The translations under genes were made by a program, and so were the position numbers. A stretch of 64,000 nucleotides of DNA, taken from positions 9,311 to 73,310 of the forward strand of contig PGZN01000017.1 of assembly GCA_002840165.1 (NCBI GenBank), read 5' to 3'. Each line of letters begins with the position of its first letter. Position 1 is the stretch's first letter. Source of the stretch: Firmicutes bacterium HGW-Firmicutes-8. GTDB taxonomy: Bacteria > Bacillota > Thermincolia > Thermincolales > UBA2595. The notes beneath the pieces are model-generated. The model saw nothing but the letters and a program-made list of their open reading frames with translations, was not told where the DNA came from and did not search any database. Positions 24,692 through 41,012 of this stretch are shown here, in pieces.

Positions 24692-25132
24692 TTGAAGTTA
24701 AAAGCAATAGTTTTAGTTGTATTAGTCGCTGCGGTGGTTGCTTTAATTACTGCCAAAGGGGTTAAAACCGAGAATACGCCGGAAGATTATTCTTCAAATA
24801 CTCCGACCTCGCAGACAGCAAGTTTAATCGAAGAAGCAAAACAGAAAGGCCAGCCGGCCTGGCTTTTGTTTCACTCAACAAAATGACCGTCCTGTATAGA
24901 GATGGAGCAGGTGTTCCATACGTTAGAACCGGAGTTTAAAGGGAAAGTTGCTTTTGTTAATATTGATGTAAATGATCCCGCGGAGCAGGCATTATGCTCT
25001 CAATATCAAATTCAGTATATTCCTACCACCTATTTTTTAAACTCGAAGGGGGAACCTACTTTTAACTATGTAGGCGTTATTCAGCAGGACGAAATGAGAG
25101 CCAAAATTATGGTATTGGCGGAGGGCAAGTAG
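24692..25132 (+). CDS. Membrane-anchored thioredoxin-like selenoprotein (U-P-S-C site)
   Basis: 146 residues if the UGA at 24884-24886 is selenocysteine (residue 65). An N-terminal helix (about 3-20) anchors or exports it. The redox site is STK-U-PSC, so Sec takes the place of the first Cys of a thioredoxin CxxC. Downstream, VAFVNIDVND and QYIPTTYF with the cis-Pro continue the thioredoxin fold in the same frame. A hairpin ATGGA-N8-TCCAT (24902-24919, GGU in the loop) lies 15 nt after the UGA as a bSECIS candidate. The frame is otherwise intact over 147 codons. GGGGGGAC precedes the TTG start. The stop codon abuts ccdA, suggesting that CcdA supplies its electrons. Confidence 0.85.
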
Positions 25133-25822
25133 ATGGAGGAACTGGTCACCCGGTACTTGTCCCAGGCGCTGCAGGGTTACTCGATACTGGCTGTGCTATT
25201 GGTGTTTTTCGCCGGTATTGTCACGAGCATAGGGCCTTGCAATATGTCGATGATCCCTGTGCTTATGGCTTATGTGGGCGGCACTTCTGATATCGGCAAA
25301 GCCCGGAGTTTCTGGTTATCGTTGTTTTTCACCCTGGGTACATCAACCACTTTTGCCTTATTAGGAGTTATTGTTTCGGTTATTGGCGGTATTTTCGGCG
25401 CTTCGAAATCAGTTTTGATTTACACTGCCGCCGCTGTAAGTATAGCAGTCGGTCTTAAGATGCTGGGGGTTATCAAATTTAACCTGCCCAACATTGGGTC
25501 AAAAATCCTGCGCAGGCCACAGCGGCAAGGAATTTGGGCCGCCTTCCTGATGGGTTTGTTGATTGGCCTAGCTGGTTCTCAATGCGGCACGCCTGTCCTC
25601 TTCGCCATCCTGTCCCTGGTTATGAGTAAAGGTAAAATTGCTTATGGGGCAGTACTGCTGTTTTTGTATGGGCTGGGCCGGGGGGTGCCGGTTATAATTG
25701 CCGGGACATTTACCGGTTTTGCCAAAGGGCTTCCTGGGCTTTCGAAATGGTCAGGCGTTTTTGAAAAAACAGCGGGAATTATATTAATCGGAATAGGGTT
25801 TTATTTTGCCTGGACGGCTTAA
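25133..25822 (+). CDS. ccdA: CcdA-family thiol-disulfide electron carrier
   Basis: 229 residues, about six membrane helices. The two conserved cysteines are in SIGPCNMSMIPVL (first helix) and GSQCGTPVL (fourth). CcdA/DsbD-type proteins carry electrons from cytoplasmic thioredoxin to extracytoplasmic thioredoxin-like partners. It begins immediately after the stop codon of the Sec-thioredoxin gene, which is the obvious partner. A cytochrome c maturation role is possible, but no such genes are nearby. Confidence 0.9.
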   Translation: MEELVTRYLSQALQGYSILAVLLVFFAGIVTSIGPCNMSMIPVLMAYVGGTSDIGKARSFWLSLFFTLGTSTTFALLGVIVSVIGGIFGASKSVLIYTAAAVSIAVGLKMLGVIKFNLPNIGSKILRRPQRQGIWAAFLMGLLIGLAGSQCGTPVLFAILSLVMSKGKIAYGAVLLFLYGLGRGVPVIIAGTFTGFAKGLPGLSKWSGVFEKTAGIILIGIGFYFAWTA

Positions 25823-25838
25823 TATGGGAGGGGAACTT

Positions 25839-26177
25839 ATGGACGAGAGGTTATTTTCTATGGAAGCGGAGTTTTTTAAGGCCTTAGCCCATCCAACCAG
25901 AGTGCGGATTCTTAAACATCTAAGAGAAGGCGAAAAATGCGTTTGCGAATTCACTGCGGATTTGGATATGGAGCAGTCAAATACATCTCAGCACCTGGCC
26001 ATTTTGCGGAAGCAGGATATCGTAAGTTACCGTAAAGAAGGCCTGAAAGTTATTTATAAAGTAAATTACCCGCAGGTTTTTGAGATACTTGACATGGTTG
26101 AAGATGTTTTAGTGTCCCAGGTTAACGCAACTTTGAATTTGCTGAATGAAAGACCGAAAAGAAGAGGAGGTGAATAG
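25839..26177 (+). CDS. arsR: ArsR/SmtB family repressor
   Basis: 112 residues, winged helix. EGEKCVCEFTADLDMEQSNTSQHL contains the CVC metal/arsenite ligand pair at the start of the recognition region, as in classical ArsR. ATG with GGGAGGGGAA upstream; the longer frame from 25806 overlaps ccdA. It is placed inside the ccdA-trx-arsP cluster and probably controls it in response to arsenite or organoarsenicals. Confidence 0.9.
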   Translation: MDERLFSMEAEFFKALAHPTRVRILKHLREGEKCVCEFTADLDMEQSNTSQHLAILRKQDIVSYRKEGLKVIYKVNYPQVFEILDMVEDVLVSQVNATLNLLNERPKRRGGE

Positions 26178-26467: not shown

Positions 26468-27484
26468 ATGAATATAGCAACTCAAATCTTTGGTTGGCTG
26501 AACGACCAACTTTTAAGAATGACATGGCTCTGGGAATCTGTAAGACTTCTTGTGGAGAAGGTATTTGGTTTATCTATCCAGGAAAGACTGGGGGGAAGTA
26601 TTCATTTCTTTATCTATGATACAATAAAGATTTTCATATTATTATCGGTGCTTATATTTGGAATATCATACATTCAAAGTTACTTCCCGCCTGAAAGAAC
26701 CAAAAAAATTCTTGGAGGGATAAAAGGTATCAGGGGAAATATTGTCGGAGCATTGTTAGGAACTATTACACCATTTTGCAGTTGCTCCAGTATCCCAATT
26801 TTTATTGGTTTCACATCGGCTGGCCTGCCCTTAGGGGTGACCTTTTCGTTTTTGATATCTTCTCCTCTTGTAGATTTAGCATCATTACTGTTATTGATGT
26901 CATTCTTCGGCGCTAAAATTGCAGTCGCCTACGTTGTTGTTGGTTTGGTTTTAGCTGTTATTGGAGGAACTCTCATTGACAAGCTGGGCCTCGAAGAATA
27001 TGTAGAGGGTTATATTAGAGAAATAGAAAGTGTTGAGTCCAGTATTGTTGAAATGACACGTGAAGAAAGGATATCTTATGCAAAGGAACAGGTTAAGGCT
27101 ATTATCAAAAGAGTGTGGCTATATGTCCTAATCGGTGTTGGCATAGGAGCGGTAATTCATAACTGGATTCCCCAATCAATCATAGAAAACGTGGTGGGAG
27201 CAAATAATCCATTTGCCGTAATACTTGCTACCGTAGTGGGCATTCCTATGTATGCAGATATTTTTGGAACTTTGCCAATAGCGGAAGCCCTGTTCAAGAA
27301 AGGGGTAGGAGCTGGCACCATATTGTCATTTATGATGGCAGTGACAGCCCTATCGTTACCTTCCTTGATTATGCTCAGTAAAGTAGTAAAGCCTAAACTT
27401 TTAGCAGTATTTTTTACTATAGTTACAGTTGGAATCATTATTATTGGTTATTTGTTTAATGCATCTTCATATTTTATCGGATAG
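26468..27484 (+). CDS. arsP: ArsP-family permease (organoarsenical efflux)
   Basis: 338 residues, about eight membrane helices. The signature TPFCSCSSIPIF (about 100-111) and the second half GIPMYADIFGTLPIAEAL are characteristic of ArsP (DUF318). Studied ArsP proteins export trivalent methyl- or aromatic arsenicals. A hydrophilic loop (about 178-215) separates the two halves. With ArsM further along (40218), the host could both make and expel methylarsenite. GTGGTGAA precedes the ATG. Confidence 0.92.
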   Translation: MNIATQIFGWLNDQLLRMTWLWESVRLLVEKVFGLSIQERLGGSIHFFIYDTIKIFILLSVLIFGISYIQSYFPPERTKKILGGIKGIRGNIVGALLGTITPFCSCSSIPIFIGFTSAGLPLGVTFSFLISSPLVDLASLLLLMSFFGAKIAVAYVVVGLVLAVIGGTLIDKLGLEEYVEGYIREIESVESSIVEMTREERISYAKEQVKAIIKRVWLYVLIGVGIGAVIHNWIPQSIIENVVGANNPFAVILATVVGIPMYADIFGTLPIAEALFKKGVGAGTILSFMMAVTALSLPSLIMLSKVVKPKLLAVFFTIVTVGIIIIGYLFNASSYFIG

Positions 27485-32716: not shown

Positions 32717-33559
32717 ATGAAAAACGATAAAAACATAAAGGAAAACTTAAATGTCGAAATCACCTATTGTGTAGAGTGAGGTTTCTTTTCTTCAGCCTCC
32801 AGTTTGGCGGCTGCAATTAAAAACAAATTTGGGATTACTGCGAAACTGATAGAAGGGCATAATGGTATCTACGAGGTGGCTGTGAACGGTAATATGATTT
32901 ACTCAAATCAAGGCGCATGTAGTAAAAGACCGAAGGAAGACGAGATTTTTCAGGAGATCCAAAAACACACAACACCCCTTTCAGTAGAAGATTCTGATAC
33001 GGTATCATCTGATATCTTCGAACAGAGCAGGAGTTTAGACATAGAATTTATGTACCTTGACCTGAGCGTCTGCACATGGTGTCAGTCAACAGAGTCCAAC
33101 CTTGAAGAAGCTATTGCGGAAGTGGCGCTGGTTTTAAAGGCCACCGGCGTAAATGTGAATGTTAAGAAAATACACATTCAATCCGAGGAACAGGCCCGTG
33201 AATTGGGATTTATAAGTTCCCCTACAATTAGAATCAATGGACAGGATATTCAGTTGGATGTCAAAGAATCTTTATGTGATTCTTGCGGTGATTTGTGCGG
33301 AGACAATGTTGACTGCCGTATCTGGACCTACCAGGGCAAGGAATATACGGCTCCACCTAAGGGAATGATTATTGACGCGATATTGAGGGAAGTTTACGGT
33401 GGTTCGAAAAAGAGCGTGGAAACGAGTACTCCTTCGAGGGAAGTGCCAGAGAATCTAAGGAGATTTTTTACGGCTAAAAGCAAGAAGGAAGAAAATGAGA
33501 TTGTTAAAGTTGTGGATAGCTGCTGCAGTCCGTCTTCAAATGATCCTGGCTGCACATGA
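32717..33559 (+). CDS. SelW-like (Rdx) selenoprotein fused to DUF2703
   Basis: 280 residues if the UGA at 32777-32779 is selenocysteine (residue 21). The first 75 residues are an Rdx domain: ITYCVE-U-GFFSSASSLA gives the C-x-x-U redox motif of SelW, and IYEVAVNGNMIYSNQG is the typical C-terminal strand pair. Residues about 110-235 are DUF2703, with CTWCQST, SSPTIRINGQDI, ESLCDSCGDLCG and DCRIW. A Cys-rich tail follows (DSCCSPSSNDPGCT). A hairpin CAGCC...GGCTG at 32793-32813 is a bSECIS candidate. DUF2703 genes often sit in arsenic clusters. Strong GAGGAGG start at ATG 32717. Confidence 0.87.
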
Positions 33560-34044: not shown

Positions 34045-34410
34045 ATGAAAAAAATTGCGGAATTTTACAAAGCATTAGGTGATGAGACCCGGCTAAAAAT
34101 TATTCAGATGCTTACCGAACAAGAGATGTGTGTTTGTGAAATAATAGATAGACTGAATATGTCTCAACCTGCCGTATCCCATCATCTCAAGATTCTTAGA
34201 CAGGCTGGGCTGGTAAAAGACAGCCGGGATGGCAAATGGATCTATTATTCGATTGATGTCGATGTGTTTAAAGACGTTTTTAAAGGAGAAAATACGACAA
34301 TAATTCAAAGTTACGCCGGACCCATAAAGAGAAAAATAGAAAACGTACAACCATCACGGATGAGGACTGATCCATCTTTGTGCGAGAAGCTTACAGGAAA
34401 ACAACGGTAA
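34045..34410 (+). CDS. arsR: ArsR family arsenic repressor
   Basis: 121 residues. EQEMCVCEIIDRLNMSQPAVSHHL carries the arsenite ligands CVC in the third helix of a classical ArsR. It probably binds AACATAT-N12-ATATGTT in front of its own gene and releases it upon As(III) binding. First gene of arsR-acr3-arsD-arsA-arsA-selenoprotein. Confidence 0.93.
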   Translation: MKKIAEFYKALGDETRLKIIQMLTEQEMCVCEIIDRLNMSQPAVSHHLKILRQAGLVKDSRDGKWIYYSIDVDVFKDVFKGENTTIIQSYAGPIKRKIENVQPSRMRTDPSLCEKLTGKQR

Positions 34411-34452: not shown

Positions 34453-35523
34453 GTGCAGGAAAAAGAAGCAAAATTATCTTTACTGGATAGGTTATTGACC
34501 CTATGGATTTTTCTGGCTATGGCCATTGGGGTGGGAGTAGGTTATGTTTTTCCAGGGACAGCTGACCTTCTAAATAGAATGTCTGTTGGGACCACATCTA
34601 TACCCATAGCGGCAGGCTTGATAATAATGATGTATCCGCCTTTGGCTAAGGTCAATTACCGTGAACTGGGCAAGGTATTTAAGAACACCAGAGTACTCGG
34701 GTTATCTTTAGTCCAAAACTGGATCATCGGACCTGTGCTTATGTTTGTCCTGGCTATCGTGTTTCTGCGTGGTTACCCCGAATACATGGTCGGTTTAATA
34801 TTAATCGGCTTAGCCAGGTGTATTGCCATGGTTATCGTGTGGAACAGCCTGGCTAAAGGTGACTCGGAATATGCTGCAGCTTTGGTGGCATTTAACTCAA
34901 TATTTCAGGTAATTTTTTATTCTGTTTATGCCTGGGTTTTTATTACCGTTCTTCCCGGGGTCTTTGGGCTGAAGGGGATGGAAGTTGATATTTCCATGGG
35001 TGAAGTAGCCAAGAGTGTCGGTATTTACCTGGGGATACCTTTTGCTGCTGGGATGCTGACCAGGTTGTTCCTGGAACCTGCGAAAGGTAAGGAGTGGTAT
35101 GAAAAGACCTTTGTGCCCAAGATAAGCCCCCTTGCTCTAATCGCCCTTTTGTTTACTATTATAGTCATGTTTGCTTATAAGGGCAGCAATATCGTCAAGC
35201 TGCCGATGGATGTTGTGCGGATTGCCATCCCGTTAATTATTTATTTTTTGGTCATGTTTACAGTATCATTTTTTATCAGCAAAAAGGCCGGGGTCAATTA
35301 TGCTCAAACCACCAGCCTGTCCTTTACGGCGGCCAGCAACAACTTTGAGCTGGCGATCGCTGTAGCGGTAGCAGTCTTTGGCATCAATTCCGGGCAGGCT
35401 TTTGCGGCGGTAATCGGTCCCCTGATTGAGGTACCGGTGATGATTGCTTTGGTTAATGTAGCCCTCAGTTGGGGCAGGAAGTACTTTGACAAAGAAGGCC
35501 ATTCGGTCCGTTCCGCAGGGTAG
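34453..35523 (+). CDS. acr3: Acr3-family arsenite efflux permease
   Basis: 356 residues, ten predicted membrane helices. [12 protein letters not shown] carries the conserved Cys that binds arsenite in Acr3, and the motif [18 protein letters not shown] is typical. Exports As(OH)3 using the membrane potential or, with ArsA, possibly ATP. GTG start with AAGGAGG upstream. Confidence 0.96.
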
Positions 35524-35566: not shown

Positions 35567-35881
35567 ATGAAAGTTGAATTTTTTGAGCCTCCGATGTGCT
35601 GCAGCACCGGTCTATGCGGCCCGGCTCCCGATAAGACCCTGGTTCAGTTAGGCCAGGACATAAATAAGCTCAAAGAAAGATTTCCCGGAATCATTATAGA
35701 ACGTTACATGATTACCCAGCAGCCATTGAAGTTTAGAGATAATGAAGAGGTCTACAAACTGGTTAAGGATAACAGCAAAAATATTCTGCCGATCACAGCA
35801 TTAAACGGCAAAGTGATAAAGACCCACAACTATCCCTCTTTGGAAGAAATAATTAAAGCAATCGAAGGTGAAAACAAATGA
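35567..35881 (+). CDS. arsD: ArsD arsenite metallochaperone
   Basis: 104 residues. Early EPPMCCSTGLCGP has the three As(III)-binding Cys (11, 12 and 17 here). It transfers arsenite to ArsA. The ATG at 35567 has AAGGAG upstream; the frame is open to 35486 but without a site. It overlaps arsA by 4 nt (ATGA). Confidence 0.96.
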   Translation: MKVEFFEPPMCCSTGLCGPAPDKTLVQLGQDINKLKERFPGIIIERYMITQQPLKFRDNEEVYKLVKDNSKNILPITALNGKVIKTHNYPSLEEIIKAIEGENK

Positions 35882-36759
35882 CCAAATTTATCTTTTTCTC
35901 CGGGAAGGGCGGTGTGGGCAAGACCTCCATGGCCTGCTCCACCGCAGTATATTATGCTTTGAAAGGTGAAAAAACCCTGATTGTGACAACCGACCCGGCA
36001 TCCAACCTTGCTGATGTTTTTGAACAGGAAATCGGGCATAAGGTTACCAAAATTGACGGGATTGAAAATCTCTGGGCCATGGAAATCAACCCGGATGTGG
36101 CAACGAGGGAATACAAGGAGAACGCCCTGGCCCCCATGCGGGACCTCTTTGACGAAGAAATGCTGAGAGTTGCCGAAGAACAGTTAAGTGGTCCATGCAC
36201 CGAGGAAATGGCCGCTTTTGATAAGTTCATAGATTTCATGGAAGACGATATGTACGAGGTCGTGGTGTTTGACACCGCCCCTACCGGCCATACCATCAGG
36301 CTTTTAGAACTGCCAGTGGACTGGAGCAAACATATCGAGGAAAGCTCCAAAGGGAGTGGACAAACCTGCATGGGACCGGTCCAGTTGATTCAGGAAAGCA
36401 AGCAGAAATATGATGACGCTATTGCCAAACTGAGAGATCCGGCGGTCACCGATTTTGTCTTTGTCCTGCACCCGGAGCAGACGTCCCTGGAGGAGACCAA
36501 ACGGTCTTCCGGTGAACTCGGGGGAATGGGTATCAAGACTACTCATCTCATTATTAATGGGCTAATCCCCGCAGAAGAAGCTGTAAACCCCTTCTTCAAG
36601 CAGAGGTATGAAATGCAGCAGAAACACCTGGCGGAAATCCGCGAAGCTTTTGCCGGAATACCGGCTAAGACCATGGAACTCTTTGACAATGAATTAAAGG
36701 GGCTGGACATGTTAAAAAGATGTGCGCAGAAACTATTTGATGGGGTGGATAACTTATGA
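35878..36759 (+). CDS. arsA: ArsA arsenite-stimulated ATPase, first copy
   Basis: 293 residues, a single ATPase domain. P-loop GKGGVGKTS, TTDPASNLADVF, and the DTAPTGHT switch motif. Classic ArsA is one chain with two such halves; here two separate genes overlap by 4 nt and may form a heterodimer. The Cys in GPCTEEM and others are candidate arsenite ligands. Confidence 0.95.
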   Translation: MTKFIFFSGKGGVGKTSMACSTAVYYALKGEKTLIVTTDPASNLADVFEQEIGHKVTKIDGIENLWAMEINPDVATREYKENALAPMRDLFDEEMLRVAEEQLSGPCTEEMAAFDKFIDFMEDDMYEVVVFDTAPTGHTIRLLELPVDWSKHIEESSKGSGQTCMGPVQLIQESKQKYDDAIAKLRDPAVTDFVFVLHPEQTSLEETKRSSGELGGMGIKTTHLIINGLIPAEEAVNPFFKQRYEMQQKHLAEIREAFAGIPAKTMELFDNELKGLDMLKRCAQKLFDGVDNL

Positions 36760-37658
36760 GTAAACTGGAAGGTCTTTTATATCCGAAACAGGGTCAAAGA
36801 AAAAATATTTTCATTTCCGGCAAAGGCGGCGTAGGCAAGACCTCAGTTGCTTGTATCACCGCAGTAAATTCGGCCAAGAAAGGGTTCAAAACACTGCTGA
36901 TGACCACAGACCCGGCGGCCCATATCGGCAGTGTACTGGATAAACCCGTTTCAGATACCATAACCAAAATCGATGGCATCGACAATCTGTATGCGGTCAA
37001 GATCGACCAGAAGAAGTGCACTGAAGAATATAAAAAGGGTATTCTAGACGATGCCAGAGCCAGGTTTGACCCGAACACAGTACAAGCTATGGAAGAAGAA
37101 CTAAACTCCCCCTGTACCGAAGAAATGGCGGCTTTCCAGAAATTCATCGAATATGCCGGCGGGGACGATTTTCAGGTAATCGTTTACGACACCGCACCCA
37201 CTGGGCACACTTTAAGACTTTTAGAACTGCCGATGGAATGGAGTAAGCAGATTCAGATGAAATCAGGGTTGTCAGTTGAAGCCAGCGAGGAGGACAAAAA
37301 TCAGAAGGAACGCTTTGACCGGGTTATTGAAATGATGAAGAACAAAGAGCTTACCACCTTCGGTTTTGTCATGTACCCGGAGAAGACACCGATTATTGAA
37401 GCCTACCGGGCTTCCGAGGAGCTTAAATCCCTTGGGATAGCGACCCAATTAGTGGTAGCCAACCTGGTCATCCCGGAAGAACAGTGCCAGACCCCGTTTT
37501 TTACCAACAGGAGAAATATGCAGTTAAAATACCTGGAGGAAATAAAGGAACGGTTCGGGGAAGCAGAAATTCTTCAGCTTCCCATGTACTCAGAGGAAAT
37601 CAAAGGCCTGGAGATGCTGTCTGCTATTGCGGGGAAATTATATGAGGGGAGTAATTGA
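36756..37658 (+). CDS. arsA: ArsA arsenite-stimulated ATPase, second copy
   Basis: 300 residues. P-loop GKGGVGKTS (about 24), TTDPAAHIGSVL and DTAPTGHT. It is a clear paralogue of the preceding ArsA and overlaps it by ATGA. SPCTEEM is shared by both copies. Together with ArsD it should drive or couple arsenite efflux through Acr3. Confidence 0.95.
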   Translation: MSKLEGLLYPKQGQRKNIFISGKGGVGKTSVACITAVNSAKKGFKTLLMTTDPAAHIGSVLDKPVSDTITKIDGIDNLYAVKIDQKKCTEEYKKGILDDARARFDPNTVQAMEEELNSPCTEEMAAFQKFIEYAGGDDFQVIVYDTAPTGHTLRLLELPMEWSKQIQMKSGLSVEASEEDKNQKERFDRVIEMMKNKELTTFGFVMYPEKTPIIEAYRASEELKSLGIATQLVVANLVIPEEQCQTPFFTNRRNMQLKYLEEIKERFGEAEILQLPMYSEEIKGLEMLSAIAGKLYEGSN

Positions 37659-37659
37659 G

Positions 37660-37998
37660 ATGAGCGATAAGATTAAAATTATTGTATTCGGCCTGCGCGA
37701 CGAGGCCTGCGGTAGTGGGGGCTGAAACTGCAGCGGAGGGGATTGCGGGCCAACTCCCACCACAGGCGAGCAGTTTGAAGAACTTAAATCATTTTTATCG
37801 AAAACAGATATAGGAGACAGGGTTGAAGTGCAGTTTATCGACGTTTTCGAAGACGGTATAGATGGGCATGAAAAAGTAAAAATGTTTATGGACAGGGGAT
37901 ACCGCCTACCCCTGATCTCTATAGACAATCAAAAATTCTTTTACGGCGCGATTTCTAATAAACTGATTCATGAAACGGCAACAGAACTTTTAAAATAG
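37660..37998 (+). CDS. Unrecognised selenoprotein at the end of the ars operon
   Basis: 112 residues if UGA 37723-37725 is selenocysteine (residue 22). The frame otherwise runs unbroken for 113 codons to TAG at 37996. The N-terminus (IKIIVFGLRDEA) looks like a first beta strand of a thioredoxin-like fold; then CGSGG-U-NCSGGDCGP clusters Sec with three Cys; later VQFIDVF and LPLISI. It is faintly like YuzD-type proteins. A 6-bp hairpin (CTGCAG with TTGCGG, 37728-37748, GGAG in the loop) is a bSECIS candidate. ATG starts 2 nt after arsA. No other start fits a shorter Sec-free protein well. Confidence 0.8.
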
Positions 37999-38046
37999 GC
38001 TTGGGGCGAAGTAAAATACGAGAGTTTCGTAACATATGTTTCATGG

Positions 38047-38076
38047 GGTGTCTTAAAAGGGGACACCTCTTTTATT
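38047..38076 (+). terminator. Intrinsic terminator of the ars operon
   Basis: GGTGTC-TTAAAAGGG-GACACC followed by TCTTTTATTTTT. Confidence 0.85.
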
Positions 38077-40217: not shown

Positions 40218-41012
40218 TTATTTTCTTGCTTCTACGTAGATGCTTACTACATAATCCTGCAGTGACTGGCCTTCTTCCAAACTGTCCAAAACAGCTCTTC
40301 CAATAGGGTCTGTGGTGCCTGGGTCAATACATACGGAGTCATCTTTTTCCATTGTTTTAACATCTGTTAACCCGGAGGCTGTGACAAGCCCCTTATATTC
40401 ATCAACCAGCATGGCGCCGGCAATGCAGCCAACATAGGCCTCCATGCTGGACCTAACTTTTTCCGGCAGTTTTTTAATCAGGGCAATATCTGAGATTGCG
40501 ACTCTTCCACCAGGTTTAAGGACCCGGTTTATTTCTTGAAAGACTCTTGTTTTATCTGCCGACAGGTTGATCACACAGTTGCTGATCACAACATCTACGG
40601 AGTTATCGGCTACAGGCAGGTTTTCTATCTCTCCAAGCCGGAATTCAACATTTTCAAAATTATCTTTCCTGGCGATTGACCTGGCTTTTTCAATCATTTC
40701 CGGGGTCATGTCAACACCGATGATTCTACCTGCCGGGCCTACTTTGGAAGCCGCCAGAAAACAATCAAAACCTGCCCCGGAGCCGAGGTCCAGAACTGTT
40801 TCGCCGGCTCTTAGACCGGCTAGGGCCGTTGGATTTCCGCAGCTCAGGGCCAGATTGGCCTCAGCTGGGATGGCATTGAGTTCGGTCTCTGAATAGCCCA
40901 GAGATTTGGCATATTGGCCTGCATCTCCGCAGCTGCACCCGCAGCCCGACTGCTGTTTGGCGAACAAACCGTAAGCTTCTCTGACAATTTTAGTCGTTTT
41001 GTTTTGATCCAT
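40218..41012 (-). CDS. arsM: ArsM arsenite S-adenosylmethionine methyltransferase
   Basis: 264 residues. VLDLGSGAGFDC is the SAM site. Arsenite-binding Cys are near the N-terminus (GCGCSCGD), at VISNCVINL (about 144) and in EAYVGCIAGA (about 190), as in ArsM. Converts As(III) to methylated forms. AAGGAGG upstream of the ATG. It lies alone on the minus strand next to a repeat-rich gap. Confidence 0.95.
   Translation of the reverse strand: MDQNKTTKIVREAYGLFAKQQSGCGCSCGDAGQYAKSLGYSETELNAIPAEANLALSCGNPTALAGLRAGETVLDLGSGAGFDCFLAASKVGPAGRIIGVDMTPEMIEKARSIARKDNFENVEFRLGEIENLPVADNSVDVVISNCVINLSADKTRVFQEINRVLKPGGRVAISDIALIKKLPEKVRSSMEAYVGCIAGAMLVDEYKGLVTASGLTDVKTMEKDDSVCIDPGTTDPIGRAVLDSLEEGQSLQDYVVSIYVEARK

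Follow-up and report, generated by a model that had tools for sequence, protein, structure and literature searches.

The window analysed here, a stretch of 64,000 nucleotides from Firmicutes bacterium HGW-Firmicutes-8, carries a set of arsenic genes on its forward strand. The series starts with arsR (34045..34410; NF033788, 112 bits), followed by acr3, coding for the arsenite efflux permease (34453..35523; TIGR00832, 462 bits, over cut-off), and by arsD (35567..35881; NF033727, 104.8 bits, over cut-off), which by alignment encodes a canonical MCCSTGLCGP metallochaperone. Two half-size arsA ATPase genes of about 300 aa each come next, at 35878..36759 and 36756..37658 (TIGR00345, 269.7 and 228.3 bits). 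The gene under study (37660..37998, +) has GAGGGGAG upstream of its ATG, which is separated by 1 nt from the stop codon (37656-37658) of the second arsA. Judged from this spacing, the ars genes upstream and a terminator-like hairpin with a T tail on its 3' side (38045..38069, +), it is the last gene of an arsR-acr3-arsD-arsA-arsA operon, right after the second arsA and ahead of the terminator, as in the original prediction made from the sequence. The frame described there, open for 113 codons but for a single UGA at codon 22, is also read here as 112 residues and a TAG, with its lone TGA (37723..37725, +) in the context CGSGG-U-NCSGGDCGP. A search of the genome itself returned no second copy of the gene.

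Elsewhere in the window, a second likely selenoprotein, membrane-anchored and thioredoxin-like (Pfam Thioredoxin, 1.2e-11), is encoded at 24692-25132 (+) with an in-frame TGA in U-P-S-C. It is followed by genes for CcdA (25133-25822), ArsR (25806-26177) and an ArsP-like permease (26468-27484), and Cys homologues of its product are encoded by the next gene after members of the studied family at loci L082 and L083. Ahead of arsR, a DUF2703 protein (32804-33559, +) resembles the 'DF family (seleno)protein' NF049942 (57.5 bits, cut-off 70) and has a SelT/W/H-like start, in its Cys form in this window. Between this gene and arsR, a C-GCAxxG-C-C family protein (PF09719; 33593-33895, -) lacks the N-terminal part and is probably a truncated remnant. 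An ArsM-type arsenite methyltransferase, whose family has known Sec members, is encoded in its Cys form at 40218-41012 (-).

Relatives of the 112-residue product were sought in 399 genomes of the window's phylum, using the window protein with U written as C as the query, and were found in 51 of them, about half of the matched stretches containing exactly one TGA. After orientation and choice of the start, the TGA lies within the Cys/Gly loop in 32 of 63 loci, and most others have Cys there. The homologues keep the frame across the UGA and have UGA or Cys in the same column; the Cys homologues that the original prediction had suggested looking for thus exist, alongside others with Sec. In the clade of the window gene, this column holds TGA in two lineages, the window genome (G000) and G037/G251 (L043, L044), in an unambiguous alignment. 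It holds TGC or TGT at L009, L010, L041, L042, L045 and L046, the genomes concerned being Desulfosporosinus metallidurans, Desulfosporosinus sp. I2, G341, G381, G005 and G091. On the family tree, about 10 changes between Sec and Cys are needed, at least six of which are forced by well supported branches (starred). In closely related pairs of Sec genes, dN/dS downstream of the UGA is about 0.1 (e.g., dS 0.32 with dN 0.03, dS 0.88 with dN 0.12), so the post-UGA sequence is under strong purifying selection in these relatives. The frame at 37660-37998 goes far beyond what chance would give. One Cys member of the family (L065, 6001-6363) has an in-frame TAG at codon 12. Neither plasmids (tblastn) nor viral contigs yielded relatives.

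The genome of the window carries selB, tRNA-Sec (selC), selA and selD, each over curated cut-offs, a check proposed with the original prediction; its selD itself has an in-frame TGA. Among the genomes searched, selA is over its cut-off in 50 of the 51 with a family member versus 206 of the 348 others (256 of 399 overall; Fisher p 7e-10), and the lone family genome without such a hit has selA in two pieces. UGA-22 is almost certainly read as selenocysteine by the SelA/B/C/D of this genome, giving a Sec protein, and we infer that Sec is actually inserted in the window strain. The selenoprotein gene originally proposed is thus supported by relatives with UGA or Cys, by the conserved domain past the UGA and by the Sec machinery. 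That the UGA is a stop, leaving a pseudogene or a 21-residue product, is very improbable: such a reading could draw on the weakness of the isolated SECIS hairpin of the window gene, but it conflicts with the same-column UGA in an independent lineage and Cys elsewhere, with the purifying selection past the UGA in relatives and with the complete machinery. An end at codon 21 is very unlikely because the post-UGA sequence is a conserved thioredoxin-fold domain. A code with TGA as tryptophan was judged unlikely, given that UGA alternates with Cys and that the genome has the full Sec machinery.

In the published model of the bacterial SECIS (bSECIS), an apical loop of 3-9 nt, with G in the first two places, lies 16-37 nt after the UGA on a stem of 4-16 bp, with an MFE <= -7.5 (PMC13188914). 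This rule fits 17 of 30 family Sec genes versus 1.4 expected under synonymous resampling, and a stricter GG-loop test gives p < 0.05 in 16 of 30 Sec genes versus 3 of 28 Cys genes, both sets of counts coming from related sequences and not being independent. In the window gene, a candidate apical hairpin, GGGAUUG[CGGGC]CAA(C)UCCC (37739..37758, +; p ~0.075), has one bulged C and places its loop 20 nt after the UGA; loop, spacing and stem fit the published geometry, but with -4.3 kcal/mol in isolation it misses the -7.5 rule. The 6-bp hairpin 3' of the UGA put forward in the original prediction, CUGCAG/UUGCGG (37728-37748), is able to form, yet its stability is low (-5.3 kcal/mol, z -1.4) and it is unconvincing; by the published geometry 37739-37758 is the better SECIS candidate. 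No SECIS stands out at the window gene in plain folding z-scores (z -1.0; -0.66 versus synonymous resampling), so that none is claimed from energy alone. Rfam gave neither a SECIS nor another RNA at the gene. The SECIS of the window gene is a candidate, not a demonstration.

In an alignment of 36 family rows (A1), the invariant positions are C/U22, C29, D61, P84 and G96. For subtypes of the form GSR...C-x4-UGP, the alignment puts Sec near or at the C29 column, and the position of Sec in the loop may therefore differ between subtypes. This GSR subtype, found at L070, L076, L078, L079, L081 and L085, comes from the window's own family, with none in the window genome; it stands just after queC-like genes and has a strong bSECIS (CAGUCUCAGGCUGAGACUG in most). 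An AlphaFold2 monomer of the window protein (pLDDT 84, pTM 0.74) displays a thioredoxin-like order of elements, with an active loop (19-28) whose position is not fixed (pLDDT < 50). Foldseek ranked 1xg8 first (TM 0.66), with thioredoxins among the nearest solved folds; the ArsD structures 3kgk/3mwh appear among the thioredoxin folds with the lowest rmsd (3.0-3.3) of the listed hits, all fold matches being weak (none below E 1e-3) and not ArsD-specific. HMMER against PDB also gave 1xg8 as the best solved relative by sequence (E 3e-8), and DUF1462/YuzD (PF07315, solved as 1xg8) is the top Pfam match for half of the members (lowest E 1.8e-6). The window protein itself, however, stays below the Pfam gathering cut-off of 25 bits for PF07315 (16.3 bits, E 0.012), and it has no match to the ArsD models NF033727 and PF06953, which weakly match 4 of the 36 family members. 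Judged by curated cut-offs, it belongs neither to ArsD nor to DUF1462. Its fold is predicted to be thioredoxin-like, near DUF1462 (YuzD) and ArsD.

The protein resembles ArsD (PF06953, NF033727) in size, in how its strands and helices succeed each other, in a Cys-rich loop that closes with C-G-P, in having arsA as a neighbour and in a similar C-terminal half, LP-L-x-x-ING-x-x-x-x-G. A single profile comparison with ArsD (probability 95, E 3.7e-8) placed C29-G-P on the third ligand Cys-G-P and U22 on the vicinal Cys pair. The two differ in that ArsD has the vicinal Cys12-Cys13 and Cys18 (CC-x4-C), whereas the window protein has U22-x-C24-x4-C29 and the family loop is Sec (or Cys)-x-Cys-x3-5-Cys; moreover, a true ArsD is encoded in the same operon. 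ArsD uses Cys12, Cys13 and Cys18 in handing As(III) to ArsA (PMC12607644), for which reason the U-C-C loop is suggestive of an arsenical carrier. The best reading, of moderate confidence, is an ArsD-like selenolate/thiolate carrier of As(III). In such a mechanism, a thioredoxin-like protein with Sec22, Cys24 and Cys29 in its N-terminal loop, where ArsD has its three As(III) ligands, would capture As(III), and perhaps also an organoarsenical, via Se and two thiols and pass As(III) to ArsA, with export by Acr3. It would be a second, selenolate-based arsenical carrier alongside the ordinary ArsD, Sec giving tighter or faster exchange. We think that the protein works like ArsD, with As(III) binding and hand-over to ArsA, both raised in the original prediction, as its putative steps. 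Against the carrier stand the lack of a match to ArsD models, the weak and unspecific fold matches, the low pLDDT of the active loop and the weak SECIS of the window gene.

The link to an arsenite operon, noted in the original prediction for this one gene, recurs across the family. An Acr3, ArsD, ArsA or ArsP gene lies within 6 kb of 21 of the 63 family loci versus none of 20 control loci, a small control made of random regions from 10 of the genomes. The gene directly follows arsD-arsA-arsA in G381, G341, G251 and G037, and is a little further downstream of it in Desulfosporosinus (L009). Of the eight tree rows in the window gene's starred clade, five lie with arsD-arsA-arsA, four of them immediately behind the second arsA; the genomes come from different families. 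A role in arsenical handling is probable. Since ars genes are absent within 6 kb of two thirds of the loci, the wider family deals with more than arsenic, and this proportion also weighs against the carrier. The many loci without ars genes, like the GSR subtype found after queC-like genes in the window's own family, would suit a selenoprotein with another substrate (e.g., selenium/sulfur trafficking or another soft metal) that is in the ars operon by chance; the five of eight rows with arsD-arsA-arsA in different families speak against this, and it appears improbable.

Frequent neighbours of family members are Thioredoxin_3 (ArsE-like), a membrane thioredoxin, CcdA, a ferredoxin-like protein and pyridine nucleotide reductases, a setting that also fits a reductase and thus counts against a carrier. 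In a Sec-dependent thiol-redox enzyme, Sec22 would attack a bond (As-S, disulfide or As(V)/organoarsenical), with a thioredoxin/CcdA system re-reducing it; the protein would reduce arsenicals or maintain ArsD/ArsA thiols in the reduced state, but not carry As(III). Thioredoxins, CcdA and ferredoxin-like proteins stand beside family members in L048, L050, L082, L083 and L092, a pyridine nucleotide-disulphide reductase adjoins the member in L057 and a thioredoxin that in L094; thioredoxins are among the nearest solved folds, and a redox function is assumed for the majority of known selenoproteins (PMC13188914). The ars clade, however, has no classical UxxC or CxxU at a helix start, its three-residue U-x-C-x3-5-C layout resembles a metalloid site, and its partners are ArsD and ArsA rather than redox proteins. 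The redox enzyme is considered less likely, and a carrier is somewhat favoured over a reductase. The thioredoxin-like MTH895/ArsE (TIGR00412) also occurs in ars loci, and a protein of this type is a neighbour of several family members, but it is a CxxC thioredoxin and gave one weak family match only (E 0.028).

Sec is already known in metalloid and organometal handling from Sec-ArsM, Sec-ArsC, the SAO system (SaoL, SaoC, SaoB, SaoT) and the HUIPC Trx-like protein (PMC13188914). The studied family shares this use of Sec, but the families differ: no ArsD-like component of an Acr3-ArsD-ArsA operon is listed among them, and HUIPC Trx-like weakly matches only four family members (E 0.0013). The family is absent from the May 2026 table of 119 selenoprotein families (PMC13188914) and not recognisable among the new families of deep-Sep, no NCBIfam model exceeds its cut-off, and a literature search, which covered papers outside subscription, found nothing on it. 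By the catalogue, deep-Sep and NCBIfam tests, it is a new selenoprotein family. Far from being an isolated oddity, the window gene belongs to a large family that had not been catalogued before.

Selenium and arsenic antagonise each other, and this family places selenium at the centre of arsenite export. It adds an uncatalogued selenoprotein family, present in roughly one in eight of the genomes sampled from the phylum, and because about half of its members have an in-frame UGA, a standard gene caller would cut such genes short or overlook them. On the most far-reaching view, this new and widespread Bacillota family may have an ars-operon branch serving as a selenolate arsenic metallochaperone that feeds ArsA beside ArsD, while other branches may use the same Sec/Cys loop for export of other soft metals or organoarsenicals (ArsP, Acr3) and for redox tasks. 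An operon encoding an ordinary ArsD alongside an ArsD-like protein with Sec makes it possible to test directly what a selenolate ligand contributes to the transfer of metalloids.
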